Shown here: piece after piece, positions 18,942 to 34,327 of the stretch | How positions within the stretch are numbered: the first letter of the stretch is position 1 | How the letters are laid out: each line of letters opens with the position of its first letter | DNA from: Xanthomonas hortorum pv. pelargonii | GTDB lineage: Bacteria > Pseudomonadota > Gammaproteobacteria > Xanthomonadales > Xanthomonadaceae | NCBI RefSeq assembly: GCF_024499015.1 | Contig: NZ_CP098604.1 | Coordinates: forward strand, 3,410,001-3,474,000 | DNA: 64,000 nt | Direction: 5' to 3' | Notes under the pieces: generated by a model | Database searches by the model: none | The model's input: only the letters and a program-made list of their open reading frames with translations | What the model was told of the DNA's origin: nothing | Position numbers and translations under genes: made by a program

Positions 18942-19128
18942 CACCCTACAGTGCATGCCAATGTGTGGCAGCTTTATGTCAAATGTGTCGCGGTAAGACA
19001 AATGCAACACATAGCCCCTATAAAAGTGACGGGGATCTTGAACGTGCTCGCCACTGCAGTGCGCGGAACGCCACCAATTCTTGACGACTCCTCTTCATAC
19101 CGGACCTTTTGACCTGGAGATCAGCCGC

Positions 19129-20607
19129 ATGGCCGTTCGCAACAGCAGCAAGACATTATTGATGACGTTTGGTACCGCACTGGCGCTGTCCGCCTGCGGT
19201 GGTGGTGCCGACCGCGTCGCTTCGCCTGGCGAGGGCGCGTTTCCGCCCGCACCGACACCCGCTCCTGCACCGACCCCGGCGCCCACGCCGGCACCGACGC
19301 CTGCACCGGCACCGACCGGCCCGGCTGCGGATTGCCCGACCGGTTTTTCCAACGTCGGCACCATCGCCAACAACACGCTGCGCGCCTGCCAGTTGCCGGA
19401 CACCATCACCGGCAATCTGGTTGTACCGGCACGTGCAGGCACTGCGTATTCGATCAGTGGCCGCGTCAACGTGGGGACCGACCGCGGCGGCAATGCCATT
19501 GCACCTGCCGCCGGCAGCGCGCAGGGCATCTTGACGATCGAGCCGGGCACGACGTTGTACGGCTCGTCGGGTAGCGACTACATCGTGGTCAATCGCGGCT
19601 CGCAGATCTTTGCCGAAGGCAGCGCCACCGCACCGATCGTGTTCACCGCGCGTCAGGCGCTGGACGGCACCGTCACCGCCAATACCATCGGCCTGTGGGG
19701 CGGCATTGTGGTGTTGGGCCGCGCGGCCATCAACAACTGCCCGGGCACCACCGTGTCAGGTACGCCGGAATGCCAGGCGCAGGTGGAAGGCACCAACGCG
19801 TTCTACGGCGGCAACAGCGTCACCGACAACAGCGGTTCCATGCGCTATCTGCGCGTGATGTATTCGGGCTTCGAAATCTCGCCCAACAACGAGCTGCAGG
19901 GCATCACCCTGGCCGGTGTGGGCAACGGCACGCGTCTGGATTACGTGCAGATCCACAACAGCTCCGACGACGGCATCGAATGGTTCGGTGGTTCGGTCAA
20001 CGGCAGCCACGTGGTGATCACCGGTGCCGACGACGATTCGCTGGATACCGATGCCGGTTGGAACGGCGCCTTGCAGTTCGGCATCGTGGTGCAGCGCGCC
20101 GGTGGCGGCGACCGCATGAACGAGTGGAGCAGCCTGCGTCGCCAGCCGTATTCGCGCCCGAAGGTGGCCAACTTCACCTACGTGGGCAATGCGCGCGCCG
20201 GTGCGGCGATCATGCTCAACCAGGGCACGCAGGCCGCGTTCTACAACTCGGTGTTTACGCGTCCGGCGGGTGGCACCGGCGATGGCCTGGTGTGCTTCAA
20301 CCTGGCCGACGCCGATACCCTGGGCACATTCAACTCGGTGTTCTTCGCCTGCCCGACCGCCTTCGGTAGCGATGCGCGTGCGGCCACCCAGTTTGCGGCC
20401 GGTACCAACAACGTCGCCAACGGTGTGTCCACGTTGCAGAACACCTTCGTCAATGGCGCCAACGAAACCGCCGTGCCGGCATTCCAGGGCTTGAATGGGG
20501 TAAGCAGCTTCTTCCAGCAGGTGAACTACATCGGTGGCGTGCGTGATGCTAACGACACCTGGTGGCAGGGCTGGACCTGCGGTCTGACCGCCGATCGTCC
20601 CTGCTGA
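19129..20607 (+). CDS. ElpS-like lipoprotein, possible Xcs T2SS substrate
   Basis: A 492-residue lipoprotein. The signal peptide ends in the lipobox LSAC (Cys23), followed by GGGAD. A flexible linker made of Pro-Ala-Thr repeats spans about residues 36-62. The rest is a beta-rich domain with right-handed beta-helix-like features (Asn/Gly/Ser-rich, repeated RLDYVQIHNSSDDGIEWFGG-like turns). From memory, the order lipoprotein, TBDR, gspC-N matches the Caulobacter locus that encodes ElpS, an extracellular lipoprotein secreted by the T2SS under phosphate starvation. That suggests this protein is exported to the cell surface by Xcs. The start at 19129 has a GGAG ribosome site; a TTG at 19081 is possible but would spoil the signal peptide. 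Confidence 0.72.
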   Translation: MAVRNSSKTLLMTFGTALALSACGGGADRVASPGEGAFPPAPTPAPAPTPAPTPAPTPAPAPTGPAADCPTGFSNVGTIANNTLRACQLPDTITGNLVVPARAGTAYSISGRVNVGTDRGGNAIAPAAGSAQGILTIEPGTTLYGSSGSDYIVVNRGSQIFAEGSATAPIVFTARQALDGTVTANTIGLWGGIVVLGRAAINNCPGTTVSGTPECQAQVEGTNAFYGGNSVTDNSGSMRYLRVMYSGFEISPNNELQGITLAGVGNGTRLDYVQIHNSSDDGIEWFGGSVNGSHVVITGADDDSLDTDAGWNGALQFGIVVQRAGGGDRMNEWSSLRRQPYSRPKVANFTYVGNARAGAAIMLNQGTQAAFYNSVFTRPAGGTGDGLVCFNLADADTLGTFNSVFFACPTAFGSDARAATQFAAGTNNVANGVSTLQNTFVNGANETAVPAFQGLNGVSSFFQQVNYIGGVRDANDTWWQGWTCGLTADRPC

Positions 20608-20617
20608 GGCACAGCGT

Positions 20618-20645
20618 CACGCGGCGGCCTGATGGTCGCCGCGTG
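20618..20645 (+). other. Intercistronic hairpin between lipoprotein and TBDR genes
   Basis: A 9-bp perfect stem (cacgcggcg at 20618-20626, cgccgcgtg at 20637-20645) lies in the 78-base gap and has no T tract. It could stabilise the upstream message or partly terminate it, allowing higher lipoprotein than receptor expression. Confidence 0.5.
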
Positions 20646-20685
20646 ATGCGTCCAGCTTCATCTTTCAGTTGCCAGGGCTCCCACG

Positions 20686-23349
20686 ATGCGAACCTCCGCT
20701 GTCGCCCGTCTTTCGCGGACGGGCCTGTCTCTTTCCATTTCCACCTTGCTGTTTTCCGGCGCTGCTCTGGCGCAATCGACCACGACCGATGCCGATTCCA
20801 GCAGCGGTACCAGCAGCACGACCAGCACCACCAACAGTGCGCCCAAGCAACTCGACCAGGTCGTGGTGCGTGGCGAGTACATTCCCGAACCGATGCTGCA
20901 GACTTCCGAGGTGGCGTCCTTCATCACCCGTGAGGACATGGAGCGCACCGGCGACAGCAGCGCAGCGGTAGCGCTGACGCGTGTCACCGGCCTGAGCCTG
21001 TCGCGCGGCAAATATGTGTATGTGCGCGGCCTGGGCGAGCGCTATTCCTCTGCGTTGTTCAATGGCTCGCCGTTGCCCAGCCCCGAGCCGATGCAGCGCG
21101 TGGTGCCGCTGGATCTGTTTCCCAGCGATGTGCTGGCCAGCGTGACCGTGCAAAAAACCTATTCGGCCGATTATCCGGGCGAATTCGGCGGCGGCGTGAT
21201 CGATCTGCAATCGATGACGGTGCCGGATAAACCGTTTCTCTCGCTCACGGTGGGCGGCGGCGTCAGCAGCGTCAGCACCGGCGAAAAAGGCCTGACCTAC
21301 TACGGCTCCGGCGACGACGAGTGGGGCTATGACGATGGCACGCGCAAGCAGCCTGCCGCGTTGCGCGATGCGATCCAGAGCGGCCGGCGCGTCGATCTGG
21401 GCAGCTTCTCGCGCGAGGACATCCGCAGCATCGGCCGCAGCTTGAACAATGCCAACCTGTACGTGCTGCAGGAAAAGGACAGCATCGCCCCGGACGTCAA
21501 TGTGGGCGGCAGTGCCGGTTACAGCATGGATGTGGGCGAAGCCAAGCTGGGCATCATTGCAGTGGCCAGCTACGACAACGAATGGCGCACGCGTACCGGC
21601 AAGCAGCAGGACGGCATCTTTGTCGGCGATACGGTCGAGTTCAATTCCAATTACGACTTCGCCACCACCCGTAACAACGTGCGCACCAACGGCATGCTGG
21701 GCCTGGGCTGGGAATACGGCCGCCACACCATCGGCTGGACCACCTTGTATGTGCACGATGCCTTGAAGGTGGCGCGCAGTCGCGCCGGCCGCGATGAGCT
21801 GGCCGGTTTCGATGTGCGCGACGACAACACCGAGTGGTACGAGCGCCAGCTGATCAACAACCAGCTACGCGGTACGCATGCGTTCGGCGAATACGATGAC
21901 CTGAAGATCGAATGGCGCGCAGCGGTGGCCAATGCCAGCCGCGATGTGCCGTACGAAACCGGCATTCGTTACGAACTGCTGGATGGCTACTGGGCGCACG
22001 ATGCTTCGCGCGTGCAGAACTACACCCGTTTCAGCAAGGTCGACGACAAGGTGGCCAGCGGTGGCGTGGATGTGACCTGGCGCTTGCCGATCGAGCACGA
22101 CCTCACCGTCAAGGGTGGTCTGGCCTATCTGGACAACGACCGCACGGCGTGGAGTCGCGAATTCCGCTTCCTGGCACTGGACGGCCCGCTGCCGTTCTAC
22201 AACCAGTTCCAGCGTGTGGATTACCTGATCTCCGATTTCAACCTCAGCAACGATCTGCTGCGCCTGCGCGAAGCTACCGGCAGCTTCGGTGCGGCCGCGT
22301 ACGATGCGACCTTGAAGGTCAAGGCGGCGTATCTGCAGGCCGAAGGCGAGATCGTGCCGACCCTGCGCGCCACCGTCGGTGTGCGTTACGAAGACGCCAC
22401 GCAGGCGGTGCATCCGTACGACATCTTCAGCGGCACGCGCCAGGACAGCGTGGCACCGTTGGAAAACAGTTACGCGCTGCCATCGGCCACGGTGACCTGG
22501 AATTTTGCCGAAAACCAGCAACTGCGCTTCGGTGCCTCCAAGACCATCGCACGGCCGCAGTTCCGCGAGATGGCACCGCAGCAGTATCTGGACCCGGATA
22601 TCGACCGCCAGTTCTTCGGTAACCCGTTTCTGGTCGATAGCGAGCTGGTCAATCTGGATGCGCGCTACGAATGGTTCTTCGAGCCGGGCCAGTACGTTAC
22701 CGTTGGCGCGTTCTACAAGAGCATCGACAAGCCGATCGAAGCCATCGTCAACGATGCACCCGGTGGCGGCATCGTGCAGAGCTTCATCAATGCGCCCAAA
22801 GCCACGCTATACGGCGTCGAGCTGGAAGCCAAGAAGTATCTGGACCTGCCGATCGCGGGCGACTGGTGGGGCGACAACCGGGTATTCGTGTCTGGCAACT
22901 ACACGCGCACCAAGTCGGAAGTAAGTGCCAGCGATGGCGACACCGTGCAGCCGTTCGGCTTCACCGCACCGGTGCAGGCGACCTTGTTCATCCGCGATGG
23001 CTCGGCCTTGCAGGGGCAGTCCGACGACATCGCCAACCTGCAGATCGGTGTGGAAAGCGAAAGCACCCACAGCCAGGCCACGTTGATCGCCAACTATGTC
23101 GGCGAGCGGGTGTCGGCGCGTGGTCGCCCGGGGCAGCCGGATTACATCGACAAGCCGGGCACTTCGTTGGATCTGGTGATCAAGAAGGGTCTGGTGTGGT
23201 CGGGCAATACGCTGTCGCTGAACTTTGCGGCACGCAATCTGCTCAAGACCAAGTATCAGGAATACCAGAGCCTGGGCAGCAACCGGGTGGACCTGTACGA
23301 GTACCAGCCCGGCGTGACGTATGACCTGAGTGTGACAGCGCGCTTCTGA
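20686..23349 (+). CDS. TonB-dependent receptor associated with the Xcs T2SS locus
   Basis: An 887-residue outer-membrane receptor. The signal peptide ends ALA-Q (about residue 28), followed by a Ser/Thr-rich linker, a probable TonB box (LDQVVVRG) and a plug domain (about 60-200) with VRGLGERYSSALFNGSPLPS. The plug ends in EFGGGVIDLQSM, and the rest is a 22-strand barrel ending in the aromatic terminus TARF. The ligand is unknown; its fixed place between an ElpS-like lipoprotein and the T2SS genes suggests a role linked to the secreted protein or its product. A clear terminator follows, so it is probably transcribed with the lipoprotein gene rather than with xcsC. Confidence 0.88.
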   Translation: MRTSAVARLSRTGLSLSISTLLFSGAALAQSTTTDADSSSGTSSTTSTTNSAPKQLDQVVVRGEYIPEPMLQTSEVASFITREDMERTGDSSAAVALTRVTGLSLSRGKYVYVRGLGERYSSALFNGSPLPSPEPMQRVVPLDLFPSDVLASVTVQKTYSADYPGEFGGGVIDLQSMTVPDKPFLSLTVGGGVSSVSTGEKGLTYYGSGDDEWGYDDGTRKQPAALRDAIQSGRRVDLGSFSREDIRSIGRSLNNANLYVLQEKDSIAPDVNVGGSAGYSMDVGEAKLGIIAVASYDNEWRTRTGKQQDGIFVGDTVEFNSNYDFATTRNNVRTNGMLGLGWEYGRHTIGWTTLYVHDALKVARSRAGRDELAGFDVRDDNTEWYERQLINNQLRGTHAFGEYDDLKIEWRAAVANASRDVPYETGIRYELLDGYWAHDASRVQNYTRFSKVDDKVASGGVDVTWRLPIEHDLTVKGGLAYLDNDRTAWSREFRFLALDGPLPFYNQFQRVDYLISDFNLSNDLLRLREATGSFGAAAYDATLKVKAAYLQAEGEIVPTLRATVGVRYEDATQAVHPYDIFSGTRQDSVAPLENSYALPSATVTWNFAENQQLRFGASKTIARPQFREMAPQQYLDPDIDRQFFGNPFLVDSELVNLDARYEWFFEPGQYVTVGAFYKSIDKPIEAIVNDAPGGGIVQSFINAPKATLYGVELEAKKYLDLPIAGDWWGDNRVFVSGNYTRTKSEVSASDGDTVQPFGFTAPVQATLFIRDGSALQGQSDDIANLQIGVESESTHSQATLIANYVGERVSARGRPGQPDYIDKPGTSLDLVIKKGLVWSGNTLSLNFAARNLLKTKYQEYQSLGSNRVDLYEYQPGVTYDLSVTARF

Positions 23350-23370
23350 TCCAATATCTGTTGCGGTAAT

Positions 23371-23410
23371 CGCAAACGCCCGCTGTGCAACGCATGGCGG
23401 GCGTTTTGCG
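23371..23410 (+). terminator. Rho-independent terminator after the TBDR gene
   Basis: A 10-bp stem (aaacgcccgc at 23374-23383, gcgggcgttt at 23397-23406) is followed by TTTT and sits 24 bases after the receptor stop. It separates the lipoprotein-TBDR unit from xcsC. Confidence 0.88.
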
Positions 23411-23459
23411 TTCGATGGTGTCGCGCCGTGTGTCGGCGTGTGTCATTGGTTTCTTCGAA

Positions 23460-23487
23460 CTGACACATTGCTGCCGCATTCTGTCAT
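23460..23487 (+). promoter_or_regulatory. Possible Pho-box-like direct repeats upstream of xcsC
   Basis: Three CTGnC-type heptamers occur with 10-11 bp spacing: CTGACAC at 23460, CTGCCGC at 23471 and an exact CTGTCAT at 23481. PhoB sites are built from CTGTCAT-like heptamers repeated every 11 bp. Only the third copy is a full match, so this is a weak candidate, raised because the related Caulobacter locus responds to phosphate. Confidence 0.3.
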
Positions 23488-23508
23488 CCGACCGCAATCC
23501 TGAGACGG

Positions 23509-24327
23509 ATGTCCGCTTTGCAGCGCGTTTTGCCCTCCTTGAAACCCTTGATGACGCTGCGTGGTGTTCGCACCGCGTTGGCCTGCGTGCTGCTTGCGGT
23601 GTTGGCGCTGCAGTGCGCGCGCCTGCTGTGGATCTTGATCACACCGATCGGGCCGTTGGGCACTGCCCAGGTTGCCACGGCCACCGGCGCGGACCTGCCC
23701 GCATTGCGCCGCGATGTGTTCTATCGCAGCGTGCCCGAGAGCAGCAGCGATGGCATCGTGTTGCATGGCGTGCGCGCAGGCGGCACGCAAGCCGCCGCGT
23801 TTTTGAGCAGTGGCGACGGCAAGCAAGGCGCCTATCGCATCGGCGATGTCGTGGTGCGTGGCGTGACGCTGCAAGCGATCGCGAGCGATCACGTGTTGCT
23901 GCGTGCAAGCAATGGCGTGCGGCGTCTGGCGTTGGTGGAATCCACGGCATCGGCTTCGTCGACCACATCGCCGGCAACGAACGCGACAGTGCCGACAAGC
24001 GCCGCAGCTGCCGTGATGTCGAATGTCGGCACAGTCACCGGCACCGCCGCAGCAACGGCCGTCGACCCGCAACAACTGCTGACGACCGCCGGCTTGCGTG
24101 CAAGTACGGATGGCAGCGGCTTTACCGTGATGCCGCGCGGCGATGGCGCACTGCTGCGCCAGGCCGGCCTGGCACCGGGCGATGTGCTGACTCAAATCAA
24201 TGGCCGCACGCTCGATGCCGAACACCTGCGCGAGCTGCAGGACGAACTGCGCGATGGCCAGGCGGCCACGCTGACCTACCGCCGCGACGGCCAGACCCAC
24301 ACCATGACCTTGAAGCGCCCGCAATGA
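23509..24327 (+). CDS. xcsC: Type II secretion protein C (inner-membrane clamp)
   Basis: A 272-residue GspC homologue linking the inner-membrane platform to the outer-membrane secretin. It has one N-terminal transmembrane segment (about 20-45, TALACVLLAVLALQCARLLWIL), a periplasmic homology region (about 65-145, including SDGIVLHGVRAGG and GAYRIGDVVVRGVTLQAIA) and a C-terminal PDZ-like domain (about 200-270, LLRQAGLAPGDVLTQINGRTL). A Thr/Ala-rich linker joins the last two. It is the first gene of a 12-gene cluster in C-to-N order, which distinguishes Xcs from the Xps cluster, and overlaps xcsD by 4 bases. Confidence 0.88.
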   Translation: MSALQRVLPSLKPLMTLRGVRTALACVLLAVLALQCARLLWILITPIGPLGTAQVATATGADLPALRRDVFYRSVPESSSDGIVLHGVRAGGTQAAAFLSSGDGKQGAYRIGDVVVRGVTLQAIASDHVLLRASNGVRRLALVESTASASSTTSPATNATVPTSAAAAVMSNVGTVTGTAAATAVDPQQLLTTAGLRASTDGSGFTVMPRGDGALLRQAGLAPGDVLTQINGRTLDAEHLRELQDELRDGQAATLTYRRDGQTHTMTLKRPQ

Positions 24328-26402
24328 CTGCTGTTCGCCCTATATGGCTGCTTTCAGCCACGTTGTTGCTTGCACCGCCGGCGGTGCCGATGGTGTCGCT
24401 GCATGCCGCCGATGCGCCGGCCGTGCGTTTACAAGATGTGGACCTGCGTGCCTTCATCCAGGATGTGTCGCGTGCCACCGGCATCACCTTCATCTTGGAC
24501 ACGCGCGTGCAGGGCACCGTCAATGTGGCGCGTGCGCAGGCGATGTCGGAAGAGGATCTGCTCGGCATGCTGTTGGCGGTGTTGCGTGCCAATGGCTTGA
24601 TCGCGGTGTCCAGCGGTCCTTCGACCTATCGCATCATTCCCGACGACACCGCAGCGCAACAGCCCGGCAGCGCGGCCAACGGCAACCTGGGCTTTGCCAC
24701 GCAGGTGTTCACCCTGCAGCGCGTGGATGCGCGCAGCGCTGCTGAGATTCTCAAGCCCTTGATCGGGCGCGGCGGCGTGATCATGGCGATGCCGCAAGGC
24801 AATAGCCTGCTGATTGCCGACTACGCCGACAATCTGCGCCGCGTGCGCGGCCTGGTCGCACAGATCGACACCGACCGCGCGGCGATCGATACGGTGACCT
24901 TGCGTAATAGCTCGGCGCAGGAACTGGCGCGCACGCTGACCTCGCTGTTCGGGCAGGCGGGCGAGCGCAGCAATGTGCTGTCGGTGTTGCCGGTGGAAAG
25001 CAGCAACTCCCTGATCGTGCGCGGCGACCCGGCACTGGTGCAGCGGGTGGTGCGCACTGCGGTGGATCTGGACGGGCGCGCAGAGCGCCGCGGCGATGTC
25101 AGCGTGGTGCGTCTGCAACACGCCAGCGCCGAGCAATTGCTGCCCGTGTTGCAGCAGTTGGTCGGGCAGACGCCAGGCAATGACGCGCAGCCTGGGCAGG
25201 ATGCGCGCCCGACTGCCGTGGATGTGGCGGCCGCTGCCGGCGGTGCACAGACGCAGGTGATTGCACCGGCTGCCGGCAAGCGCCCGGTGATCGTGCGGTA
25301 TCCCGGTTCCAATGCCTTGATCATCAACGCCGACCCGGAAACCCAGCGCGCCTTGATGGATGTGATCCGGCAGCTGGACGTGCATCGCGAGCAGGTCCTG
25401 GTCGAAGCGATCGTGGTGGAGATCTCCGATAACGCCGCCAAGCGCCTGGGTGTGCAGCTGTTGCTGGCAGGCCGCAATGGCACGGTGCCGTTGATCGCCA
25501 CGCAATACAGCGGTGCAGCGCCGGGCATCGTGCCGCTGGCCGCTGCGGCTGCCGGCACGCGCAGCAATAACGGTGAAGAAGATTCGGTGTTGGAACAGGC
25601 GCGCAATGTGGCCGCGCAATCGTTGCTGGGGTTGAGCGGTGGATTGATCGGCCTGGCCGGGCAGAGCAACGATGCGGTGTTCGGCATGATCATCGATGCG
25701 GTCAAGAGCGACACCGGCTCCAACCTGTTGTCCACACCGTCGATCATGACGCTGGACAACGAGCAGGCGCGTATTCTGGTGGGCCAGGAAGTGCCGATCA
25801 CCACCGGCGAAGTGCTGGGCACCGCCAACGTCAATCCGTTCCGCACCATCCAGCGCCAGGATGTGGGCGTGCAGCTGGAAGTGCGCCCGCAGATCAATAC
25901 CGCGGGCGGCATCACGCTGGCGATCAAGCAGGAGGTCTCGGCGATCGCCGGGCCGGTCAGCGCGCAATCCTCGGAGCTGGTATTCAACAAGCGCCAGATC
26001 GAAACCCGCGTGGTGGTGGAAAACGGCGCCATCGTCGCGCTCGGTGGACTGCTCGATCAGAACGACCGCCAGACGGTGGAGAAGGTGCCGCTGCTGGGCG
26101 ATGTGCCCGGTCTGGGCGCGCTGTTCCGGCATAAATCGCGCAATCGCGACAAGACCAATCTGATGGTGTTCATTCGCCCGACCATCATCCGCGATGCGGC
26201 CGATGCGCAGCGCATGACCGCACCGCGCTACAACTATCTGCGCGATCGCCAGTTGGCCGATGGCGACCCGGAAGCCGCGCTCGATGCACTGGTGCGCGAC
26301 TATCTGCGTGCACAGCCGCCGCAGTTGCCGGCCGGGCCATCGTCGGTGGCGCCAGCACCAGCACCCACGCCTGCGCCCAGCGCACGCCCCGTGCAGCGCT
26401 GA
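24324..26402 (+). CDS. xcsD: Type II secretion outer-membrane secretin D
   Basis: A 692-residue secretin forming the outer-membrane channel. A signal peptide (about 1-27) precedes the N0 domain (VRLQDVDLRAFIQDVSRATG), then N1-N3 modules (e.g. TQVFTLQRVDARSAAEILKPL and VVRLQHASAEQLLPVLQQL). The C-terminal secretin domain contains LLSTPSIMTLDNEQARILVG, the VPITTGE gate motif and VEKVPLLGDVPGLGALF. A Gln/Pro/Ala-rich stretch interrupts N3, and a Pro/Ala-rich tail of about 30 residues ends the protein, perhaps for pilotin or envelope contact. The start overlaps xcsC (ATGA). Confidence 0.93.
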   Translation: MTAVRPIWLLSATLLLAPPAVPMVSLHAADAPAVRLQDVDLRAFIQDVSRATGITFILDTRVQGTVNVARAQAMSEEDLLGMLLAVLRANGLIAVSSGPSTYRIIPDDTAAQQPGSAANGNLGFATQVFTLQRVDARSAAEILKPLIGRGGVIMAMPQGNSLLIADYADNLRRVRGLVAQIDTDRAAIDTVTLRNSSAQELARTLTSLFGQAGERSNVLSVLPVESSNSLIVRGDPALVQRVVRTAVDLDGRAERRGDVSVVRLQHASAEQLLPVLQQLVGQTPGNDAQPGQDARPTAVDVAAAAGGAQTQVIAPAAGKRPVIVRYPGSNALIINADPETQRALMDVIRQLDVHREQVLVEAIVVEISDNAAKRLGVQLLLAGRNGTVPLIATQYSGAAPGIVPLAAAAAGTRSNNGEEDSVLEQARNVAAQSLLGLSGGLIGLAGQSNDAVFGMIIDAVKSDTGSNLLSTPSIMTLDNEQARILVGQEVPITTGEVLGTANVNPFRTIQRQDVGVQLEVRPQINTAGGITLAIKQEVSAIAGPVSAQSSELVFNKRQIETRVVVENGAIVALGGLLDQNDRQTVEKVPLLGDVPGLGALFRHKSRNRDKTNLMVFIRPTIIRDAADAQRMTAPRYNYLRDRQLADGDPEAALDALVRDYLRAQPPQLPAGPSSVAPAPAPTPAPSARPVQR

Positions 26403-26406
26403 TGCC

Positions 26407-27894
26407 ATGAGCAGTGCGCGCGCCAGCATTTCGTATGCGTTCGCCAAGCGCCACGGCGTGGTGCTGCTCGGCAGCGACACTGTTGCGCAGATCGGCCTGC
26501 GCGAAGGCGGCGATGTGCAGGCCCTGATCGAGCTGCGGCGTGCGCTCGGTGTGCCATTGCAGGTACGCACCTTGGCGCCGTCGGTCTTCGACCGGCATGT
26601 GTCGGAGATCTACGCCGATGCTGGCATGGAGCAGGGCGTGCAGGTGGAGGCGCTGGATCTGCACGGCAGCCTGGATTCGTTGATCGACGATATCCCCACC
26701 GCCGATCTGCTCGACAGCCAGGACGATGCGCCGATCATCCGCCTGATCAACGGCATCATCGCCGAGGCTGCACGCCTGGGCGCCTCGGACGTGCATCTGG
26801 AATCCTACGAATCGCGCTTGCGCGTGCGGCTGCGCGTGGATGGCGTGATGCGCGAAGCGGCGACCTTGCCCGGACGCATCGCCCCGCTGCTGGTGTCGCG
26901 CGTCAAGGTGATGGCACGCCTGGATATCGCCGAAAAACGCATTCCGCAAGATGGCCGCGTGTCGTTGGTGATGGGCGCCAAAGCGTTGGATGTACGTGTC
27001 TCCACGCTGCCTACGCGCAGCAGCGAGCGCGTGGTGCTACGAATCCTGGACAAGGAGCAGGGCACGCTGTCGTTGGCGCAGTTGGGCATGCCGCCGGCGG
27101 TGATGCACACCGTGCAGCGCGCCTTGCAGGTGCCCAACGGCATCGTGCTGGTCACCGGCCCGACCGGTTCGGGCAAGACCACCACGTTGTATGCGGCGCT
27201 GAGCTTGCTCAACGATGGCTCGCGCAACATCCTCACGGTGGAGGACCCGGTGGAATACGCCATCGACGGTGTCGGCCAGACCCAGGTCAACGCACGTGTC
27301 GGCATGACGTTCGCGGCCGGCTTGCGCGCGATCCTGCGGCAGGATCCGGACGTGGTGATGATCGGCGAGATCCGCGACACCGAGACCGCGCAGATTGCGG
27401 TGCAGGCCAGCTTGACCGGCCACCTGGTGCTGTCCACCGTGCACACCAACGATGCGGTGGGCGCGGTCACGCGCCTGCGCGATATGGGCATCGAACCGTT
27501 CCTGCTCGCATCGAGCCTGCGGTTGATTCTGGCGCAGCGGTTGGTACGGCGCCTGTGCACGCAGTGCCGCGCACCGCGCCCGCTGGATGCCAGTACGCGC
27601 CAGATGTTGGATGCCACGGACGCGGCAACGACCTACACCGCAGTGGGTTGCCCGGTCTGCCATCACAGCGGTTATGCCGGGCGCGTGGGCATTTACGAAG
27701 CCATCGCGGTGGACGATGCAATGCGGCGCCTGATCGGCGACAACGCCGACGAAGATGCCCTGGCCGCGGTGGCCTTCGCACGCGCACCGCGCCTGGGCGA
27801 TGCCGCGCGCGCTGCGGTGCTGCAAGGTCTCACCACGCTGGAAGAAGCGCTGCGCGTCACCCGCCAGCAGGACGATGCGCATGCCACGGTTTGA
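26407..27894 (+). CDS. xcsE: Type II secretion cytoplasmic ATPase E
   Basis: A 495-residue ATPase powering pseudopilus assembly. The Walker A motif GPTGSGKTTT is at about residues 251-260, the Asp box is VEDPVEY, Walker B is VVMIGEIRDTETA and the His box is TGHLVLSTVHTNDAVGAVTRL. The tetracysteine zinc site is present as CTQC and CPVC separated by about 28 residues. The N-terminal domain is short and atypical. The start at 26407, four bases after xcsD, is supported by context; earlier in-frame starts lie inside xcsD. Confidence 0.94.
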   Translation: MSSARASISYAFAKRHGVVLLGSDTVAQIGLREGGDVQALIELRRALGVPLQVRTLAPSVFDRHVSEIYADAGMEQGVQVEALDLHGSLDSLIDDIPTADLLDSQDDAPIIRLINGIIAEAARLGASDVHLESYESRLRVRLRVDGVMREAATLPGRIAPLLVSRVKVMARLDIAEKRIPQDGRVSLVMGAKALDVRVSTLPTRSSERVVLRILDKEQGTLSLAQLGMPPAVMHTVQRALQVPNGIVLVTGPTGSGKTTTLYAALSLLNDGSRNILTVEDPVEYAIDGVGQTQVNARVGMTFAAGLRAILRQDPDVVMIGEIRDTETAQIAVQASLTGHLVLSTVHTNDAVGAVTRLRDMGIEPFLLASSLRLILAQRLVRRLCTQCRAPRPLDASTRQMLDATDAATTYTAVGCPVCHHSGYAGRVGIYEAIAVDDAMRRLIGDNADEDALAAVAFARAPRLGDAARAAVLQGLTTLEEALRVTRQQDDAHATV

Positions 27895-29077
27895 TTACAC
27901 CGTGCTCGATCTGCACGGGCACAGCCGCCAGGGCGTGATCACTGCCGACAACGCGCACAGTGCGCGTGCGCAACTGGAACAGCGGCAGTGGGTACCGGTG
28001 CGCGTGGAGGCGGCGGTAGCGACCAGCAGCGTGCGCCCGGCGCGTTTCAGCGGCAAGGATCTGGTGTTGTTCACCCGCCAGCTCGCCACACTGGTGGAGA
28101 CCGCGCCGCTGGAAGAAGCGCTGCGCACCATCGGCACGCAGTCCGAACGCCGCGGCGTGCGCCGGGTGACCAGCCAGACGCATGGGTTGGTGGTCGAAGG
28201 CTTCCGTCTGTCCGATGCGATGACACGCCAGGGCAATGCGTTTCCGCCGCTGTATCGCGCGATGGTGGCCGCGGGCGAAAGCGCCGGTGCGTTGCCGCAG
28301 GTGCTGGAGCGGTTGGCGGATCTGTTGGAGCGGCAGGCGCAGGTGCGCAGCAAGTTGCAGTCTGCACTGGTCTACCCGGCCGCGCTGGCGTTGACCGCGG
28401 GTGCGGTGGTGATCGTGCTGATGACCTTCGTGGTGCCCAAGGTGGTGGACCAGTTCGATTCGATGGGGCGTGCGTTGCCGTTGCTGACGCGCATGGTGAT
28501 TGGCGTGTCGAACTTTCTGTTGCATGCAGGCATTCCGTTGCTGATTGCGTTGGTCATTGCGGTGATCGCGGCGCTGCGGTTGCTCAAGCGCCCGGAGCTG
28601 CGCCTGGCGGCCGACCGCGCGCTGCTGCGTGCGCCCTTGCTCGGCAGGTTGATCCGCGATCTGCACGCCGCACGCATGGCGCGCACCCTGGCGATCATGG
28701 TCAACAGCGGGCTGCCGTTGATGGAAGGCTTGATGATCGCTGCGCGCACCGTCGACAACCGCGCGTTGCGGCTGGCCACCGACAACATGGTCACCGCGAT
28801 CCGCGAGGGCGGCAGCCTGGCAGCGGCGATGAAGCGGGCGGGCGTGTTTCCACCGACGCTGTTGTACATGGCCTCCAGCGGCGAAAACAGCGGGCGCCTG
28901 GCGCCGATGCTGGAACGTGCCGCCGATTATCTGGAGCGCGAATTCGAGTCGTTCACCACCGCGGCGATGAGCTTGCTGGAGCCGGCCATCATCGTGCTGC
29001 TGGGCGGCGTGGTGGCGGTGATCGTGCTGTCGATCCTGCTGCCCATCCTGCAATTCAACACCCTCGCGCTTGGTTGA
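27881..29077 (+). CDS. xcsF: Type II secretion inner-membrane platform protein F
   Basis: A 398-residue polytopic protein with the GspF/PilC fold: two cytoplasmic helical domains (LVLFTRQLATLVETAPLEEAL near 50-75 and AARMARTLAIMVNSGLPLMEGL near 260-285) and three transmembrane segments (near 170-190, 205-235 and 365-392). It anchors the ATPase and pseudopilus base. It overlaps xcsE by 14 bases, indicating translational coupling, and is followed by a 28-base gap before xcsG. Confidence 0.92.
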   Translation: MPRFDYTVLDLHGHSRQGVITADNAHSARAQLEQRQWVPVRVEAAVATSSVRPARFSGKDLVLFTRQLATLVETAPLEEALRTIGTQSERRGVRRVTSQTHGLVVEGFRLSDAMTRQGNAFPPLYRAMVAAGESAGALPQVLERLADLLERQAQVRSKLQSALVYPAALALTAGAVVIVLMTFVVPKVVDQFDSMGRALPLLTRMVIGVSNFLLHAGIPLLIALVIAVIAALRLLKRPELRLAADRALLRAPLLGRLIRDLHAARMARTLAIMVNSGLPLMEGLMIAARTVDNRALRLATDNMVTAIREGGSLAAAMKRAGVFPPTLLYMASSGENSGRLAPMLERAADYLEREFESFTTAAMSLLEPAIIVLLGGVVAVIVLSILLPILQFNTLALG

Positions 29078-29105
29078 GCGCAGCCGCTTATCCTTGGAGA
29101 TCCTC

Positions 29106-29570
29106 ATGCAGTCCATCCATCCTCGCGTACGCATCGGCTCGCTCACATCGTGCAGGCGCATGCGCGGCTTCACCCTGGTCGAGTTGATGGTGGTGATCGT
29201 CATCATCGGCCTGCTCGCCACGGTGGTGATGATCAACGTGATGCCCAGCCAGGACCGCGCGATGGTCGAAAAAGCGCGTGCCGACGTGGCGGTGCTGGAG
29301 CAGGCGCTGGAAACCTATCGCCTGGACAACCTCGGCTACCCGAGCACCGAACAAGGTTTGCAGGCACTGCTCAACGCGCCGAGCGGATTGACCCGGCCGG
29401 AGCGCTATCGCCAGGGTGGCTACATCCGCCGCCTGCCGGAGGATCCGTGGGGGCATGCGTATCAGTACCGTCGCCCGGGCCGCAGCGGCGGCTTCGATGT
29501 GTATTCGTTCGGCGCCGATGGCGTGGAAGGCGGCGACGCCCATAATGCCGATATCGGCAACTGGCGCTGA
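29106..29570 (+). CDS. xcsG: Major pseudopilin G
   Basis: A 154-residue major pseudopilin. The class III prepilin motif is RMRGFTLVELMVVIVIIGLL, with cleavage between Gly and Phe and the conserved Glu at +5. The globular domain has the GspG signatures DNLGYPSTEQGLQALL, EDPWGHAYQYRRPG and DVYSFGADGVEGG (calcium-site loop). The leader before the cleavage site is long (about 20 residues); the ATG at 29106 is well placed. No prepilin peptidase gene lies in the window, so processing must use a peptidase encoded elsewhere, such as the type IV pilus or Xps enzyme. Confidence 0.94.
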   Translation: MQSIHPRVRIGSLTSCRRMRGFTLVELMVVIVIIGLLATVVMINVMPSQDRAMVEKARADVAVLEQALETYRLDNLGYPSTEQGLQALLNAPSGLTRPERYRQGGYIRRLPEDPWGHAYQYRRPGRSGGFDVYSFGADGVEGGDAHNADIGNWR

Positions 29571-29579
29571 GTTGCCGAA

Positions 29580-30080
29580 ATGTCTGGGCAACCGACCATC
29601 GTTAAGCACGTGCCCGCACGCGCGCCGCGCGCGGGCATGCGTGGCTTCACCTTGCTCGAACTGCTCGCGGTGCTGGTGATCACCGCACTCGCCAGCACCT
29701 TGGTGGTGATGACCTTGCCCGATACACGGCGCGATCTGCACGACCAGGCCGACGCGTTGGCCAGCGCCCTGCTGCACGCACGCGACGAGGCGATCCTGAG
29801 CCTGCGCATGGTCGAGGTGACTGTCGATGCGGGTGGATATGCATTCCGACGTCAGGTGCAGCAGCGTTGGGTGCCACTGGATGAAAAACCTTTCGTTGCC
29901 ATGCGTTGGCCGGATGGCGTGCAGACCGCATTGCCGGTTGGCGGCACCCAAGTGAGCGTGCGTTTCGATCCTACCGGTGCGGCCACGCCGCAACGCATCG
30001 CGCTGGCTGACGGTCAACAGCAGGTGCAGGTCCTGGTGGATGCAGCCGGCGTGGTGCGGGTCGATGCGCCACAACGCTAA
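29580..30080 (+). CDS. xcsH: Minor pseudopilin H
   Basis: A 166-residue GspH homologue. The prepilin motif is GMRGFTLLELLAVLVITALA, with Glu at +5, after a Pro/Arg-rich leader of about 21 residues. The rest fits the GspH beta-sandwich (LHDQADALASALLHARDEAILS). It starts 9 bases after xcsG and its end overlaps xcsI by 17 bases. Confidence 0.88.
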   Translation: MSGQPTIVKHVPARAPRAGMRGFTLLELLAVLVITALASTLVVMTLPDTRRDLHDQADALASALLHARDEAILSLRMVEVTVDAGGYAFRRQVQQRWVPLDEKPFVAMRWPDGVQTALPVGGTQVSVRFDPTGAATPQRIALADGQQQVQVLVDAAGVVRVDAPQR

Positions 30081-30444
30081 TCGCCATGACAGCGCTGGAT
30101 TTTCGCTGCTCGAACTGATGGTCGCGCTGGCGATCTTCGGTATGGCCGTGGTTGGCTTGCTGAATTTGTCCGGCGAAAGCACGCGCACTGCGGTGGTGCT
30201 GGAAGAGCGTGCGTTGGCTGCGGTGGTTGCAGAGAATCAGGCAATCGAAGCGATGCTCGCGCCCACCCCTGCAGCACTGGCACCGGCGAATGGGCAAGAG
30301 GCACTGGGCGGACGCACATGGGACTGGCAGCGAAAGTCGATGCCGGCCGGCGGCGCAGGCATTGTGCGGATCGAGGTGCAGGTGCGGGCCGCAGCGCAGG
30401 CGCAGGAAATCGCCAGTCTCAGCGTCTTGCGGAGCGCCGAATGA
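30064..30444 (+). CDS. xcsI: Minor pseudopilin I
   Basis: A 126-residue minor pseudopilin of the tip complex with J and K. The prepilin motif DSAGFSLLELMVALAIFGMA has Glu at +5. The body (AAVVAENQAIEAMLAP, then RTWDWQRKSMPAGG) matches GspI, whose conserved WxW-like segment is seen here as WDWQRK. The ATG at 30064 lies inside the end of xcsH; an upstream in-frame start would give a leader with no prepilin features. Confidence 0.88.
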   Translation: MRHNANRHDSAGFSLLELMVALAIFGMAVVGLLNLSGESTRTAVVLEERALAAVVAENQAIEAMLAPTPAALAPANGQEALGGRTWDWQRKSMPAGGAGIVRIEVQVRAAAQAQEIASLSVLRSAE

Positions 30445-31064
30445 TCCGCGCACGTCGTGCCGCAGTGTGTACCCGTGACAGTGCCGGCTTCACCTTGATC
30501 GAGTTGCTGGTTGCACTGGCGGTGTTCGCACTGGTGGCAGTCGCGGCAGTGGTGGTGATGCGGCAGAGCATCGATCAGCGCGATGCGGTACGTGCGCGCC
30601 TGCAGCAGATTCGTGAGTTTCAACTTGCGCATGGTCTGCTGCGCAGCGATCTGCAGCAGGCCGCTGTGCGGCGCACGCGCAACAGCGAGGGCGGCGCAGC
30701 ACGTGAAGCGTTCATCGCAAGCCAGCCGGGTGTGTCTGGGCCCTTGTTCGGGTTTGTGCGGCGCGGCTGGAGCAATCCGGATCAGGCGCCGCGTGCGTCG
30801 TTGCAATACGTGGAGTACCGCGTGGTCGATGGACGCCTGGAGCGCAGTGCACGCCCCGCGCTCGATGGTGCAGTTGCCGGCACGCCGCAGGTGGTGCTGC
30901 GTGGCGTGCGCTCGGCGGTGGTGGGGTTTCACTATCGCGCGCAATGGAGCGATGGCTGGAGCGGCGGGCTCGAGGCACTGCCGGATGCGATCTCGCTGGA
31001 GCTGGACCTGGAGCAATGGGGCCGCGTGCGTCAGCTGTTCGTGCTGCCGGAGGGACGCGGATGA
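30441..31064 (+). CDS. xcsJ: Minor pseudopilin J
   Basis: A 207-residue minor pseudopilin. The prepilin motif DSAGFTLIELLVALAVFALV has Glu at +5. The globular part has GspJ features (FQLAHGLLRSDLQQAAVRR, LQYVEYRVVDGRLERS, DAISLELDLEQWG). It overlaps xcsI and xcsK by 4 bases each, so the I-J-K tip-complex genes are tightly coupled. Confidence 0.9.
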   Translation: MIRARRAAVCTRDSAGFTLIELLVALAVFALVAVAAVVVMRQSIDQRDAVRARLQQIREFQLAHGLLRSDLQQAAVRRTRNSEGGAAREAFIASQPGVSGPLFGFVRRGWSNPDQAPRASLQYVEYRVVDGRLERSARPALDGAVAGTPQVVLRGVRSAVVGFHYRAQWSDGWSGGLEALPDAISLELDLEQWGRVRQLFVLPEGRG

Positions 31065-32053
31065 AGGCCTTGAACGCAGGTACGCAGCAACGCGGCGTGG
31101 CACTGCTGACGGTGTTGTTGCTGGTCGCAGTGATGACGCTGCTGATGGTGGCGGTGCTGGACGATCTGCGCTTCGGTCTGCGTCGTAGCGGCAATGGCGA
31201 GGCGATGACGCAGGCGCAGTGGTACGCGCTGGGCACCGAAACCATTGCGCGGCAACGTCTGCAGGCATTGGCCAGGCGCGACCCGATGCGCACAACGCTG
31301 GAGGGCGGCTGGAACGATCAACCGATCACCTTCCCGCTGGACGACGGCGCGGTGAGCGTGCGTCTGCGCGATCGCGGCGGCTGTTTCAATCTCAACAGTG
31401 TGGTCGCCGGTGCTCCCGAGCAATGGCAACGCAACGACGACGGTACACGCCAATACATCGCGTTGCTGCAGGTGCTCGGCATCGCGCCGCAACAGGCGCA
31501 GGCCTTGAGCGATGCGCTGGTGGACTGGATCGACAGCGACAGCCAGCCCGGTGCGCAGGGCGCCGAAGACGATCGCTACCTGCAATCGGCAGTGCCGTTG
31601 CGCACCGGGGCGACCTTGCTGGCCGGCGTCAGCGAACTGCGCGCCATCGCCGGCTATACGCCGCAGGTGATCGCGCAATTGCGGCCGTATCTGTGTGCAT
31701 TGCCGGAGGGGCGCTTGTCGCCGATCAATATCAATACGCTCAGCCTGGAAGATGCGCCGGTGTTGGTGGCGCTCACCGAAGGCGCGTTGGAGCTGCCAGC
31801 TGCGCGACGCGTCATTGCCGCGCGGCCGGCCGGAGGATGGCGCGACGCCAAGACGTTCCTGAGCCAGTCTGCGCTGATACAGGCCGAGCCTTCCAACGCC
31901 GTATTGGAACAATTCGCACTACGCACCAGCTATTTCTCCCTCTACAGCCAGGTCGACCATGCCGGCGCGCAGGTCATGCTGGATGCCTTGTTGCAGCAAG
32001 ATCCTGCGGGGCGTGTGCGGCTGGTGGCACGCCAATGGAGTTCCGACGAATGA
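31061..32053 (+). CDS. xcsK: Minor pseudopilin K (tip protein)
   Basis: A 330-residue GspK homologue, the large tip pseudopilin. Its prepilin segment RGVALLTVLLLVAVMTLLMV lacks the Glu at +5, as is normal for GspK. The body contains the inserted helical region with ININTLSLEDAPVLVALTEG and GGCFNLNSVV, typical of the family. It overlaps xcsJ and xcsL by 4 bases each. Confidence 0.9.
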   Translation: MKALNAGTQQRGVALLTVLLLVAVMTLLMVAVLDDLRFGLRRSGNGEAMTQAQWYALGTETIARQRLQALARRDPMRTTLEGGWNDQPITFPLDDGAVSVRLRDRGGCFNLNSVVAGAPEQWQRNDDGTRQYIALLQVLGIAPQQAQALSDALVDWIDSDSQPGAQGAEDDRYLQSAVPLRTGATLLAGVSELRAIAGYTPQVIAQLRPYLCALPEGRLSPININTLSLEDAPVLVALTEGALELPAARRVIAARPAGGWRDAKTFLSQSALIQAEPSNAVLEQFALRTSYFSLYSQVDHAGAQVMLDALLQQDPAGRVRLVARQWSSDE

Positions 32054-33138
32054 GTACCACCTTGCTGTTGCTGACCACCGATGCCACTGCGCAAGCCATT
32101 GCCGTGCGCGTCGATGCGCACGGCCAGGTGCTGTCGCAACGCGCAGCCAGCGCGCCGTTTGAAGCGTCTACACGCTGCGTGCTGGTGGTGCCGGGCGTGG
32201 ACGTGCAGTTGCGCTGGCTGACATTGCCGGGCCGCAGCACCGCGCAATCGATAGCCGCCGCACGCCTGCAACTGGTCGAGCATCTGGCCGTGGAGACGCA
32301 GACCTTGCATGTGGTGATCGCCGAGAGTGCCGAAGCCGATGGCACGCGCCTGGTGGCTGCGGTGGAGAGCGCGGTGATGCAGCAGTGGTTGGCGCGCGCA
32401 GCGCAGCTAGGCGTCACCCCCGATGCCGTAGTGCCCGATTGCCTGCTGCTGGAGCCCGGTGCCGACGGTGCGGCGGCAGTGATGGACTGGGATGGCCGTT
32501 GGCTGATCCGTGCCGCAGGCCTGGCCTGCAGCCTGGAGCCCGAGGTTGCACGCATGCTGCTGGGCGAGCGCGCACCGGTACAGCCGCCAACGACCGATCC
32601 TGCGCTTGCGATTGCCTGCTTTGCGCGATGCGCCACACGCACACCGATCAATCTGCGTCAGCACGCATTCGCTGCAAAGCCGGACACTGCGCAGATGGTC
32701 ACGCCGCGTCGTCTTGCGGCATTGGCCGCGCTGGTGTTGCTGTCGCCACTACTTCTGTTGCTGGCGCAGACACTACGCTACGAGATCGGTGCGCGCATGC
32801 TGCAGTCGCGCGCCGCCGCGCAGTTGGGCGTGCACGACGCAGCGGCGGTGCCTGCAGCGCTGCAGGCACGTCGGCATGCGGGTGCGGCGGTCGATACCCT
32901 GGCGGTGCAGCTCGGCACCTTGTTCGCCGCAGTCGATGCCATTCCCGCTGCCGAACTGGATCAGCTTGACTATCAATCCGCACAGCCGTTGCGGGCCACA
33001 CTGCTGCATACCGATGCCGCCAGCGTGCAGCAACTTTCCGCGCGGCTGGCAGAGGCAGGATGGAAAGTGCAACCAGGCACCAGCCAGAGCGAGGACGATC
33101 GTCTGCGCACGCCATTCGTGCTGGAGCCAGTGCAATGA
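32050..33138 (+). CDS. xcsL: Type II secretion inner-membrane platform protein L
   Basis: A 362-residue GspL homologue. The N-terminal cytoplasmic actin-like domain (about 1-210; LRWLTLPGRSTAQSIAAARLQLVEHLA split over residues 55-82) binds the ATPase E. A single transmembrane segment (about 221-243, LAALAALVLLSPLLLLLA) leads to a periplasmic ferredoxin-like domain that pairs with M. It overlaps both xcsK and xcsM by 4 bases. Confidence 0.87.
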   Translation: MSTTLLLLTTDATAQAIAVRVDAHGQVLSQRAASAPFEASTRCVLVVPGVDVQLRWLTLPGRSTAQSIAAARLQLVEHLAVETQTLHVVIAESAEADGTRLVAAVESAVMQQWLARAAQLGVTPDAVVPDCLLLEPGADGAAAVMDWDGRWLIRAAGLACSLEPEVARMLLGERAPVQPPTTDPALAIACFARCATRTPINLRQHAFAAKPDTAQMVTPRRLAALAALVLLSPLLLLLAQTLRYEIGARMLQSRAAAQLGVHDAAAVPAALQARRHAGAAVDTLAVQLGTLFAAVDAIPAAELDQLDYQSAQPLRATLLHTDAASVQQLSARLAEAGWKVQPGTSQSEDDRLRTPFVLEPVQ

Positions 33139-33611
33139 GTGCAGGTCTGCAACGCGGGATGCAGTGGTGGCAGACGCGTGCGCCGCGCGAGCGGGTGATG
33201 CTGGGCGTGATGTGCGCCGCAGTGGCCGCGTTCATCGGTTGGTATGCGCTTTACCTGCCACTGCGGCACTGGCGTGTACAGGCGCAGGCGCGTTACGCAG
33301 ATGCGGCGCAGCTGGTACTGGATGCATCCGCGCAGACGTCGGCAACCAAGCGTCCCACCGCAGCGGGCACAGCTGGGCTGGCCGAGATCATCGCAAGCAG
33401 TGCACGCGATGCCGGTGTCGGCATCACCTCGCAACAGCGCAGCGCTTCGGGCCGGTTGGAGGTGCAGATCGATGCGGTGAGCGCCACCACCTTGTTCGCC
33501 TGGCTGGAACGGCTGCGGCAAGCGCATGGCCTGGCACCGACGCAGCTGAGCATCGTGCGCGACCAGGGCCAACTGCGGGTACGCTGCGGATTTGCGGAGC
33601 CCGCACCGTGA
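33135..33611 (+). CDS. xcsM: Type II secretion inner-membrane platform protein M
   Basis: A 158-residue GspM homologue: a short cytoplasmic N-terminus (WWQTRAPRERVML, with the conserved aromatic-Arg-Glu-Arg pattern), one transmembrane segment (about 22-45) and a periplasmic ferredoxin-like domain. It partners XcsL. It is linked to xcsN by a TGA/GTG overlap. Confidence 0.87.
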   Translation: MSAGLQRGMQWWQTRAPRERVMLGVMCAAVAAFIGWYALYLPLRHWRVQAQARYADAAQLVLDASAQTSATKRPTAAGTAGLAEIIASSARDAGVGITSQQRSASGRLEVQIDAVSATTLFAWLERLRQAHGLAPTQLSIVRDQGQLRVRCGFAEPAP

Positions 33612-34327
33612 CGCGCACGCGTTGGATTTTGGTATTTGCACTGATGTTATTGGTCGCGTTGCTGGCATGGCTGCCACTGCGCCTGGTACTGCCACGCGAG
33701 GGGCTGCCGTTTTCGGTGCTGGACGTGGAAGGGCCGGTGTGGGCCGGCACGTTGCGGCAGGTGCAATGGCAGGGCATCGCATTCGGCGATGTCGCGGTGC
33801 GGCCGCGCGTCTGGCCGTTGTTGCGTGGCGAGCGGCAGGTGTACCTGCAGACCACGCAGCTGCAAGTGCTGCTGGTGGATGGCACGCAACACGGCATTCG
33901 CGATGCGCAGGGGCAGTTGTTGGTACGCCAGCCTGCGGGGATGACCTTGATCGATCTGGCATTGGAACTGCAGCAGGTCGATCTGCTATTCGATGCCACC
34001 CGCTGCGTGCACGCACGCGGGCGGGTCAGCCTGCAACTGCTGCCGAGTGGGGCGGGCGAGCTGACGGGTTTGCCGCCGCTGCGGTTATCCGGGCAACCGG
34101 TGTGCGTGGACGACACGGCGGTGCTGACACTGCTGCCGGACGCCGCGCTGCCTGCAGGTGTGCAGGCCAACGCGCAGCTGCAACTGTGGCGCGACGGACG
34201 CTGGCAGCTGCAGTCGCGCGTCGATCCCGGTCAGGACGCGGTGCTGGGCGTGGGCCTGCAACTGCTGGGCTTTACCGCCACGCCGGAGCGCATGTCGTTG
34301 CGCATCGATCAGGGGCAATTGCGCTGA
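33608..34327 (+). CDS. xcsN: Type II secretion protein N
   Basis: A 239-residue GspN homologue with one N-terminal transmembrane segment (about 8-27, WILVFALMLLVALLAWLPL) and a periplasmic beta-rich domain (VEGPVWAGTLRQVQWQG, PVCVDDTAVLTLLPDAALP). I place the start at a GTG (33608) that overlaps the stop of xcsM; no ATG gives a complete membrane segment. GspN is present only in some T2SSs and its exact role is unclear. It is the last gene of the cluster and is followed by a 726-base non-coding region. Confidence 0.82.
   Translation: MTRTRWILVFALMLLVALLAWLPLRLVLPREGLPFSVLDVEGPVWAGTLRQVQWQGIAFGDVAVRPRVWPLLRGERQVYLQTTQLQVLLVDGTQHGIRDAQGQLLVRQPAGMTLIDLALELQQVDLLFDATRCVHARGRVSLQLLPSGAGELTGLPPLRLSGQPVCVDDTAVLTLLPDAALPAGVQANAQLQLWRDGRWQLQSRVDPGQDAVLGVGLQLLGFTATPERMSLRIDQGQLR

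Follow-up and report, generated by a model that had tools for sequence, protein, structure and literature searches.

What does Xcs, a type II secretion system (T2SS) of Xanthomonas, carry, and why do the genes for a lipoprotein and a TonB-dependent receptor (TBDR) stand directly in front of it? The question arises from a 64,000-nucleotide stretch of Xanthomonas hortorum pv. pelargonii (the window), in which an initial annotation had noted a lipobox lipoprotein with a Pro-Ala-Thr linker and a beta-helix-like domain, a TBDR, a terminator and xcsC-N, and had likened it to the same order around the lipoprotein ElpS of Caulobacter. Domain matches and folding confirm all of these elements in that order, i.e. 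lipobox protein (PAPT linker, predicted beta-helix), TBDR, terminator-like hairpin and xcsC-N. Judged by its sequence the lipoprotein is an ElpS orthologue, and the evidence below suggests that the lipoprotein-competent T2SS of Xanthomonas, of the GspN type, is Xcs, with ElpS its prime candidate client and the TBDR the closest partner of ElpS. The elpS/T2SS gene-order parallel is not new, having been in print for X. campestris since 2010 (PMC2996285). What is new is the co-divergence of ElpS and the TBDR, the presence of the genome's sole GspN in xcs together with a GGG motif in ElpS, a link of a prolyl 4-hydroxylase (P4H) gene to Pro-rich ElpS linkers, and a covarying hairpin. The features of the locus are as follows, ORF denoting an open reading frame and 2OG 2-oxoglutarate.

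18084-19010, minus strand: P4H-like 2OG-Fe(II) oxygenase, divergent from elpS (PF13640, 61 bits; the start codon is the call of the ORF finder)
18975-19128, no strand assigned: elpS/P4H intergenic region (alignment of 10 Xanthomonas sequences)
19129-20607, plus strand: elpS, lipobox lipoprotein (GGG motif following the cysteine; PAPT linker; beta-helix predicted)
20614-20649, plus strand: 16-bp mRNA hairpin in the elpS/TBDR gap (fold z-score, covariation)
20686-23349, plus strand: TBDR (best NCBIfam match TonB-Xanth-Caul, under the cut-off of that model)
23371-23410, plus strand: terminator-like hairpin in the gap between the TBDR gene and xcsC (-28.9 kcal/mol, z -3.61)
23509-24327, plus strand: xcsC, GspC with PDZ (PF11356, 41.8 bits)
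24429-26402, plus strand: xcsD, secretin (PF21305, PF03958, PF00263; the first base is the start of the N0 domain match, not a start codon)
26260-27894, plus strand: xcsE (PF00437, 483 bits; ORF limits, the true start may be further in)
27755-29077, plus strand: xcsF (PF00482, 190 bits; ORF limits, the true start may be further in)
29070-32053, plus strand: xcsG, H, I, J and K, pseudopilins (domain matches)
31219-33138, plus strand: xcsL (PF05134, 63 bits; ORF limits, domain match from near 32170)
33060-33611, plus strand: xcsM (PF04612, 84.5 bits)
33608-34327, plus strand: xcsN, GspN (PF01203, 51.5 bits)

The window ElpS is 56% identical to ElpS of C. vibrioides T5M6 (locus L020, the Caulobacter sequence compared here, not strain CB15N) across 477 alignment columns covering the whole mature protein. 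Its lipobox, LSA-C23, is followed by CGGGADRV, with GGG at P2'-P4', and the mature N-terminus CGGGADxVASPGEG is common to Xanthomonas and C. vibrioides T5M6. Relatives numbered 1493 at E 0.001 or better, and all 120 of those listed carry the precomputed Pfam label PF28492. A superficial resemblance, in which an unrelated lipoprotein has only its signal peptide in common with ElpS, could appeal to the lack of any match when ElpS was scanned against a local copy of Pfam; it is refuted by the identity over the mature protein, the relatives and their label likewise speak against it, and we give it practically no credence. Comparison of the predicted fold, in which no single known family stood out, has no bearing on function. 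The orthology proposed in the initial annotation thus holds beyond the signal peptide, as does the shared gene order, which was found in L020 (elpS, TBDR, T2SS) and had been drawn for the tandem elpS-TBDR-T2SS organisation of X. campestris by Le Blastier 2010 (PMC2996285).

Set beside the published C. crescentus locus, elpS (cc0170)-cc0171-gspC-N (PMC2996285), the Xanthomonas locus has the same gene order and orthologous ElpS and TBDR proteins, but adds the divergent P4H gene, and Xanthomonas has another T2SS, Xps, besides Xcs. The linkers also differ, being Pro/Ala/Thr in Xanthomonas, whereas that of T5M6 contains Gly, Asn, Thr and Pro. In X. arboricola pv. guizotiae (L043, from 9980 onwards) the elpS frame is interrupted, leaving an open frame of 309 residues, and in the distant relatives L123, L124, L126 and L128 no lipobox was found, the starts being like those of ordinary signal peptides. 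An apparent PstS-ElpS fusion (P0077) was rejected: an internal ElpS lipobox start follows the PstS-like stretch, and it is therefore probably a mis-started adjacent gene.

The partner that ElpS keeps most closely is the TBDR, which in the window is 50% identical to the TBDR neighbouring elpS in C. vibrioides T5M6. Co-divergence was measured in 61 loci carrying ElpS, TBDR, GspD, GspE and GspF (65 loci less four short ones, L023, L031, L043 and L065), shared ancestry being handled by the partial conditioning alone. The partial distance correlation of ElpS with the TBDR is 0.74, and those of ElpS with D, E and F are 0.06, 0.13 and -0.07, while the T2SS genes correlate with each other (E-F 0.53, D-F 0.40, D-E 0.32) and the TBDR with D at 0.20. 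The distances thus form two blocks, ElpS with the TBDR and D with E and F. When the loci closest to Xanthomonas were removed (46 left), the values were 0.73 for ElpS-TBDR and at most 0.05 for ElpS with D, E or F.

Gene neighbourhoods show the same association. A scan of genome contigs gave at least 80 close ElpS relatives, and among the best-scoring 80 of these a TBDR gene adjoins elpS in all 74 testable loci. In a second sample, 299 Pseudomonadota genomes drawn evenly across the phylum, the automatic count of adjacency is 23 of 29; four of the six misses (L117, L121, L122 and L143) proved on reading to be a two-domain ElpS followed directly by a TBDR, leaving L124 and L128. ElpS genes lie beside TBDR genes also on three plasmids inspected from Bacteroidota (further plasmid matches, H15 and H18, are outside the inspected set), and by eye the three Bacteroidota ElpS N-termini are lipoprotein-like starts. 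A switch to the type IX secretion system (T9SS) in this phylum was considered and dropped, no T9SS tail domain match being found at E 0.01 in the three proteins examined. Pairs with a lipobox ElpS occur, moreover, in genomes with no recognisable T2SS. The ElpS-TBDR pair looks like a durable unit to which the T2SS is an add-on in the Caulobacter-Xanthomonas set and a few more, e.g. Sphingomonas parapaucimobilis and Indioceanicola. The dedicated receptor proposed in the initial annotation is therefore upheld, since the TBDR co-diverges with ElpS and accompanies it where no T2SS can be recognised. The SusC/SusD pairs of Bacteroidota likewise consist of a TBDR and a surface lipoprotein encoded by an adjacent gene, and the ElpS-TBDR pair is itself found in that phylum; SusD, however, has an alpha-helical fold, whereas ElpS is predicted to be a beta-helix.

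That Xcs may be suited to a lipoprotein is suggested by its last gene. Exactly one PF01203 (GspN) match is present in the genome of the window, and it is xcsN; xps is described by Lu et al. 2008 as having no xcsN homologue. In Acinetobacter, surface lipoproteins depend on GspN but soluble proteins do not (Roberts et al. 2025, PMC12802150), and GGG and ND(N/D) at P2'-P4' are the two sorting motifs of its GspN-dependent lipoproteins (PMC12802150 Table 1). The likeness is close for InvL, which reads CGGGGDGY where ElpS reads CGGGADRV, in both cases a lipobox followed by CGGG, and Xcs resembles the systems of InvL (Acinetobacter) and PulA/PulN (Klebsiella) in being a T2SS with GspN (PMC12802150). 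It differs from them in that export of ElpS is a prediction and surface exposure of Caulobacter ElpS is published as T2SS-independent. Among T2SS-positive genomes, a GspN match above the cut-off is present in 18 of the 23 that carry ElpS and in 63 of the 127 that do not (p 0.013, with no correction for kinship). Leaving aside three ElpS proteins that lack a lipobox (G102, G122 and G154), GG at P2'-P3' is found in 11 of the 17 from genomes with both T2SS and GspN and in 2 of the 10 others (p 0.046, uncorrected for kinship), and the counts become 14/17 and 2/10 if Asp at P2', added post hoc, is allowed as well (p 0.003, again uncorrected). The AlphaFold model of XcsN (pLDDT 64) was too weak and was not used.

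Roberts 2025 lists "Xanthomonas campestris 85-10" as lacking gspN (PMC12802150 Fig. 1B legend), and Lu 2008 describes xcs as xcsC through xcsN and places it in strain 85-10 (Xav); Xanthomonas therefore looks like a missed GspN system. Lu 2008 suggested that Xcs may act outside pathogenesis or be non-functional. The suggestion in the initial annotation that a lipoprotein client could explain an Xcs without a known enzyme role would fit with the sole GspN of the genome lying in xcs, the lipoprotein-specific role of GspN in Acinetobacter and the GGG of ElpS.

A possible cargo for the pair comes from its neighbours elsewhere. On plasmid pBGP9 of Alteromonas macleodii (L152:1804-12864) the order is phoB, phoR, a PstS-type binding protein, a 2OG-Fe(II) oxygenase, ElpS and TBDR; the ElpS of this locus has 1356 residues with repeated domains. 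Matches to PhoR, PstS and ElpS occur together in L118, L119 and L122, joined by PhoB in L118 and L119; in L117 PhoB and PhoR lie beside ElpS. A Caulobacter metagenome-assembled genome carries genes for a PstS-like protein, an ATP-binding cassette (ABC) permease and an ABC ATPase ahead of elpS, separated from it by a single short ORF. Phosphate starvation induces elpS in Caulobacter, and expression of cc0171 is the same in rich and poor media (PMC2996285); the PhoB regulon as listed in PMC11208175 includes the Caulobacter T2SS.

Taken together, the locus is the Xanthomonas form of Caulobacter elpS-TBDR-gspC-N and would work as follows. ElpS would be a surface lipoprotein made up of a lipid anchor, whose GGG is of the Lol-avoidance and T2SS-sorting kind, a beta-helix head and, between them, a flexible Pro/Ala/Thr tether. 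It would capture or process a ligand, most probably a compound containing phosphorus, and pass it to the adjacent TBDR for TonB-driven import. Xcs would bring ElpS to the surface, probably along with further clients, or would at least control its release. The surface location of ElpS in Xanthomonas, its export by Xcs, the hand-over of the ligand and a phosphate signal are what we infer from these comparisons. To the reading as a whole, i.e. that ElpS and the TBDR scavenge phosphorus together, with ElpS as the partner at the surface, and that Xcs serves ElpS as a lipoprotein-competent T2SS, we assign an even chance of being correct.

Several results weigh against this reading. The first is that ElpS does not co-diverge with the T2SS genes after conditioning on the TBDR, and others concern the distribution of ElpS. 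ElpS was found in 30 of the 299 Pseudomonadota genomes, and gspD lies within 7.5 kb of it in only 5 of 25 testable loci (the window not counted). The association with GspK across genomes is weak (20 of 30 ElpS-positive genomes against 127 of 269 others, p 0.054), for which reason strict dependence of ElpS on a T2SS was rejected. GspK is missing from 10 of the 30, a count that the GspD check lowers to seven passing neither test, with G102 ambiguous (GspD match of 192 bits, below the cut-off); this weakens the earlier idea of ElpS as a dedicated substrate. The GGG motif, too, was found in 2 of 22 candidate lipoproteins called by a simple rule in 864 kb of the genome (40 stretches plus the window), namely ElpS and one of the 21 others. 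The latter (L193:10940-12067) has CGGG after its cysteine and by eye resembles an ABC-transporter periplasmic binding protein; GGG is thus uncommon but not specific. Finally, a scan of 24 regions, uncorrected and against mononucleotide shuffles, revealed no clear Pho box in front of Xanthomonas elpS: the window scored 18.0 of 23.4 (p 0.02), the signal was stronger in some relatives (p < 0.005 in L018 and L040), and the Caulobacter control showed no box (p 0.6).

The two co-diverging blocks, and the 20 of 25 testable phylum-sample loci that are not beside gspD, are what would be expected if ElpS-TBDR were a self-contained uptake pair next to a T2SS for historical reasons, with Xcs carrying other proteins or doing little. 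In strain Leaf131, which has this locus (L028), deletion of xcs left leaf degradation and virulence unaffected, only Xps mattering for both (PMC10769872), which also favours such a history. Against it, the block is largely intact among the best-scoring 80 close relatives, where gspD lies no more than 7.5 kb downstream of elpS in 61 of 67 testable loci, mostly from Caulobacterales and the Xanthomonas family. Within that family ElpS is found in 30 of 99 genomes. GspK lies within about 13 kb of 13 of the 14 close copies (at least 50% identity; the exception is G342) and near none of the 16 distant ones; all 14 close copies also have a P4H gene nearby, 13 directly adjacent and one (G314) at the opposite end of the T2SS cluster. 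In the genus Xanthomonas, 28 of 35 genomes carry ElpS; each of them also encodes an Xcs-type GspK, and in 27 the two share a contig. Of the seven ElpS-negative genomes, six have a single Xps-type GspK only, one of which (G386) retains the P4H gene and the xcsL-N end, and in G398 xcsG-L and the neighbouring P4H gene persist, but the stretch read gave no match to elpS, the TBDR or xcsC-F. The block is thus lost together, though linkage alone could cause this. Decayed xcs loci stand in two Xanthomonas genomes (L153 and L154), one without elpS, TBDR and xcsC-F and the other with only the P4H gene and the xcsL-N end. The tie is tighter in Brevundimonas, where a GspC-like gene immediately precedes elpS in five of the six named loci (L063, L071, L074, L083 and L086, not L081), as it does in L132; in a Pfam check the one in L086 (8948-9748) passed the T2SSC cut-off and the one in L074 (8716-9639) only the PDZ one. 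L074 has a further gspC-like match downstream of its TBDR gene. Release of ElpS in Caulobacter is, in addition, abolished by T2SS deletion (PMC2996285). A purely historical adjacency appears quite unlikely to us.

A stronger challenge to direct export by Xcs is the published work on Caulobacter, and the surface-exposure result stands against such export. Caulobacter ElpS is a palmitoylated outer-membrane protein accessible to proteinase K with or without the T2SS, and deletion of gspC-N leaves it accessible; the T2SS is required for release of cleaved ElpS, the released form being non-acylated and cut at about residue 38, and protease inhibitors block release (PMC2996285). The initial annotation had stated that the Caulobacter T2SS secretes ElpS. 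The order matches, but surface exposure is T2SS-independent and only release of the cleaved form needs the T2SS, so that the annotation was right on order and only partly right on mechanism. On the explanation following Le Blastier, ElpS reaches the surface independently of the T2SS, and a T2SS-secreted protease clips it from its anchor, making Xcs a release system and not an exporter. The lipobox ElpS-TBDR pairs of genomes without a recognisable T2SS agree with this. On the other side, no protease gene was noticed as a common neighbour, the loci having been searched only with genes of the window and of the Alteromonas locus (a protease gene may lie elsewhere); the first report of lipoprotein export that depends on GspN dates only from 2025; and GG at P2'-P3' is commoner in genomes with T2SS and GspN. 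We regard shedding as somewhat unlikely.

The product of 18084-19010 matches solved P4H chains (phmmer, E 1.9e-40 and 1.8e-38), which we take to come from Bacillus and Chlamydomonas. H213, D215, H283 and K293 are invariant in 11 P4H sequences, the first three presumably being the HxD...H iron site and the last the 2OG-binding Lys. A P4H gene stands beside ElpS-TBDR in three arrangements: divergent and upstream in Xanthomonadaceae, upstream on the same strand in Alteromonas and one similar genome, and downstream in convergent orientation in three members of a single family (f38), probably sphingomonads. Linkers of at least 25% Pro were found in 35 of 35 P4H-linked loci and 9 of 52 without P4H, loci lacking 1.2 kb upstream and 3.5 kb downstream being dropped (98 to 87); as some contigs entered the set twice, unique linkers were also counted (29/29 against 9/49). 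The 35 are part of 41 P4H-linked loci, six having been left out for short flanks or an unreadable linker (L032, L035, L045, L077, L078 and L152): Pro makes up 41-58% of the linker in four of these and 17% in Alteromonas L152, and the linker of the remaining one could not be read. Five of the nine Pro-rich loci without an adjacent P4H (L136, L140, L141, L145 and L146) have a P4H gene elsewhere in the genome. At 200 bits or more, P4H is found in 12 of 30 ElpS-positive and 2 of 28 ElpS-negative genomes, the latter being hand-picked, mostly GspK-positive controls and not a random set.

From these sequences, the P4H may hydroxylate the Pro-rich tether of ElpS, giving a hydroxyproline stalk, perhaps glycosylated, that would be displayed at the surface by a GspN-type T2SS and coupled to the TBDR. 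The proposal is tentative and, in our estimation, rather unlikely. It is opposed by the P4H-linked L152, whose linker of TTP repeats falls below the 25% cut, by G007, where P4H occurs with a Pro-poor linker, and by the small number of independent origins, most of the 35 P4H-linked loci being from the Xanthomonas family. Lineage accounts for part of the association of P4H with ElpS, one ElpS-negative f38 genome also having P4H, and P4H relatives occur in ElpS-negative genomes of the Xanthomonas family, e.g. G386, G337 and G383. A literature search joining prolyl 4-hydroxylase, TonB-dependent receptor and Xanthomonas turned up no paper in the collection searched.

The gap between elpS and the TBDR gene contains the hairpin at 20614-20649. 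In 11 Xanthomonas sequences 97.1% of its cells are paired and five pairs have changed on both sides; the surrounding 81 nucleotides have a fold z of -4.07. Paired cells and the covariation score exceed those of all 500 shuffles and every slid control, while double-change pairs (as high in 22 of 500 shuffles) and further pair types (339 of 500) do not stand out; in L046 the minimum-energy fold of the region differs from the hairpin, and Rfam gave no match for it. Our guess is that it may have a part in unequal expression of elpS and the TBDR gene. Upstream of elpS, the region 18975-19128 is strongly conserved in Xanthomonas (10 sequences), the conservation running from near the TGTCAAATGTGTC block as far as the ATG, and it holds a TGTCAAATGTGTCGCGGTAAGACA block. 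Another TBDR gene lies downstream of xcsN, at 35009-37762 of the window.

The ElpS-TBDR pair, present in Bacteroidota too, looks like a widespread module for uptake, perhaps of phosphorus compounds, and the P4H link points to a candidate substrate of a bacterial prolyl hydroxylase. For Xanthomonas, the evidence suggests what the poorly understood Xcs may carry. Should Xcs prove to be the lipoprotein T2SS of the genus, this would give a role to a system with none assigned in the papers cited here, and would re-open the Caulobacter result in the light of GspN.

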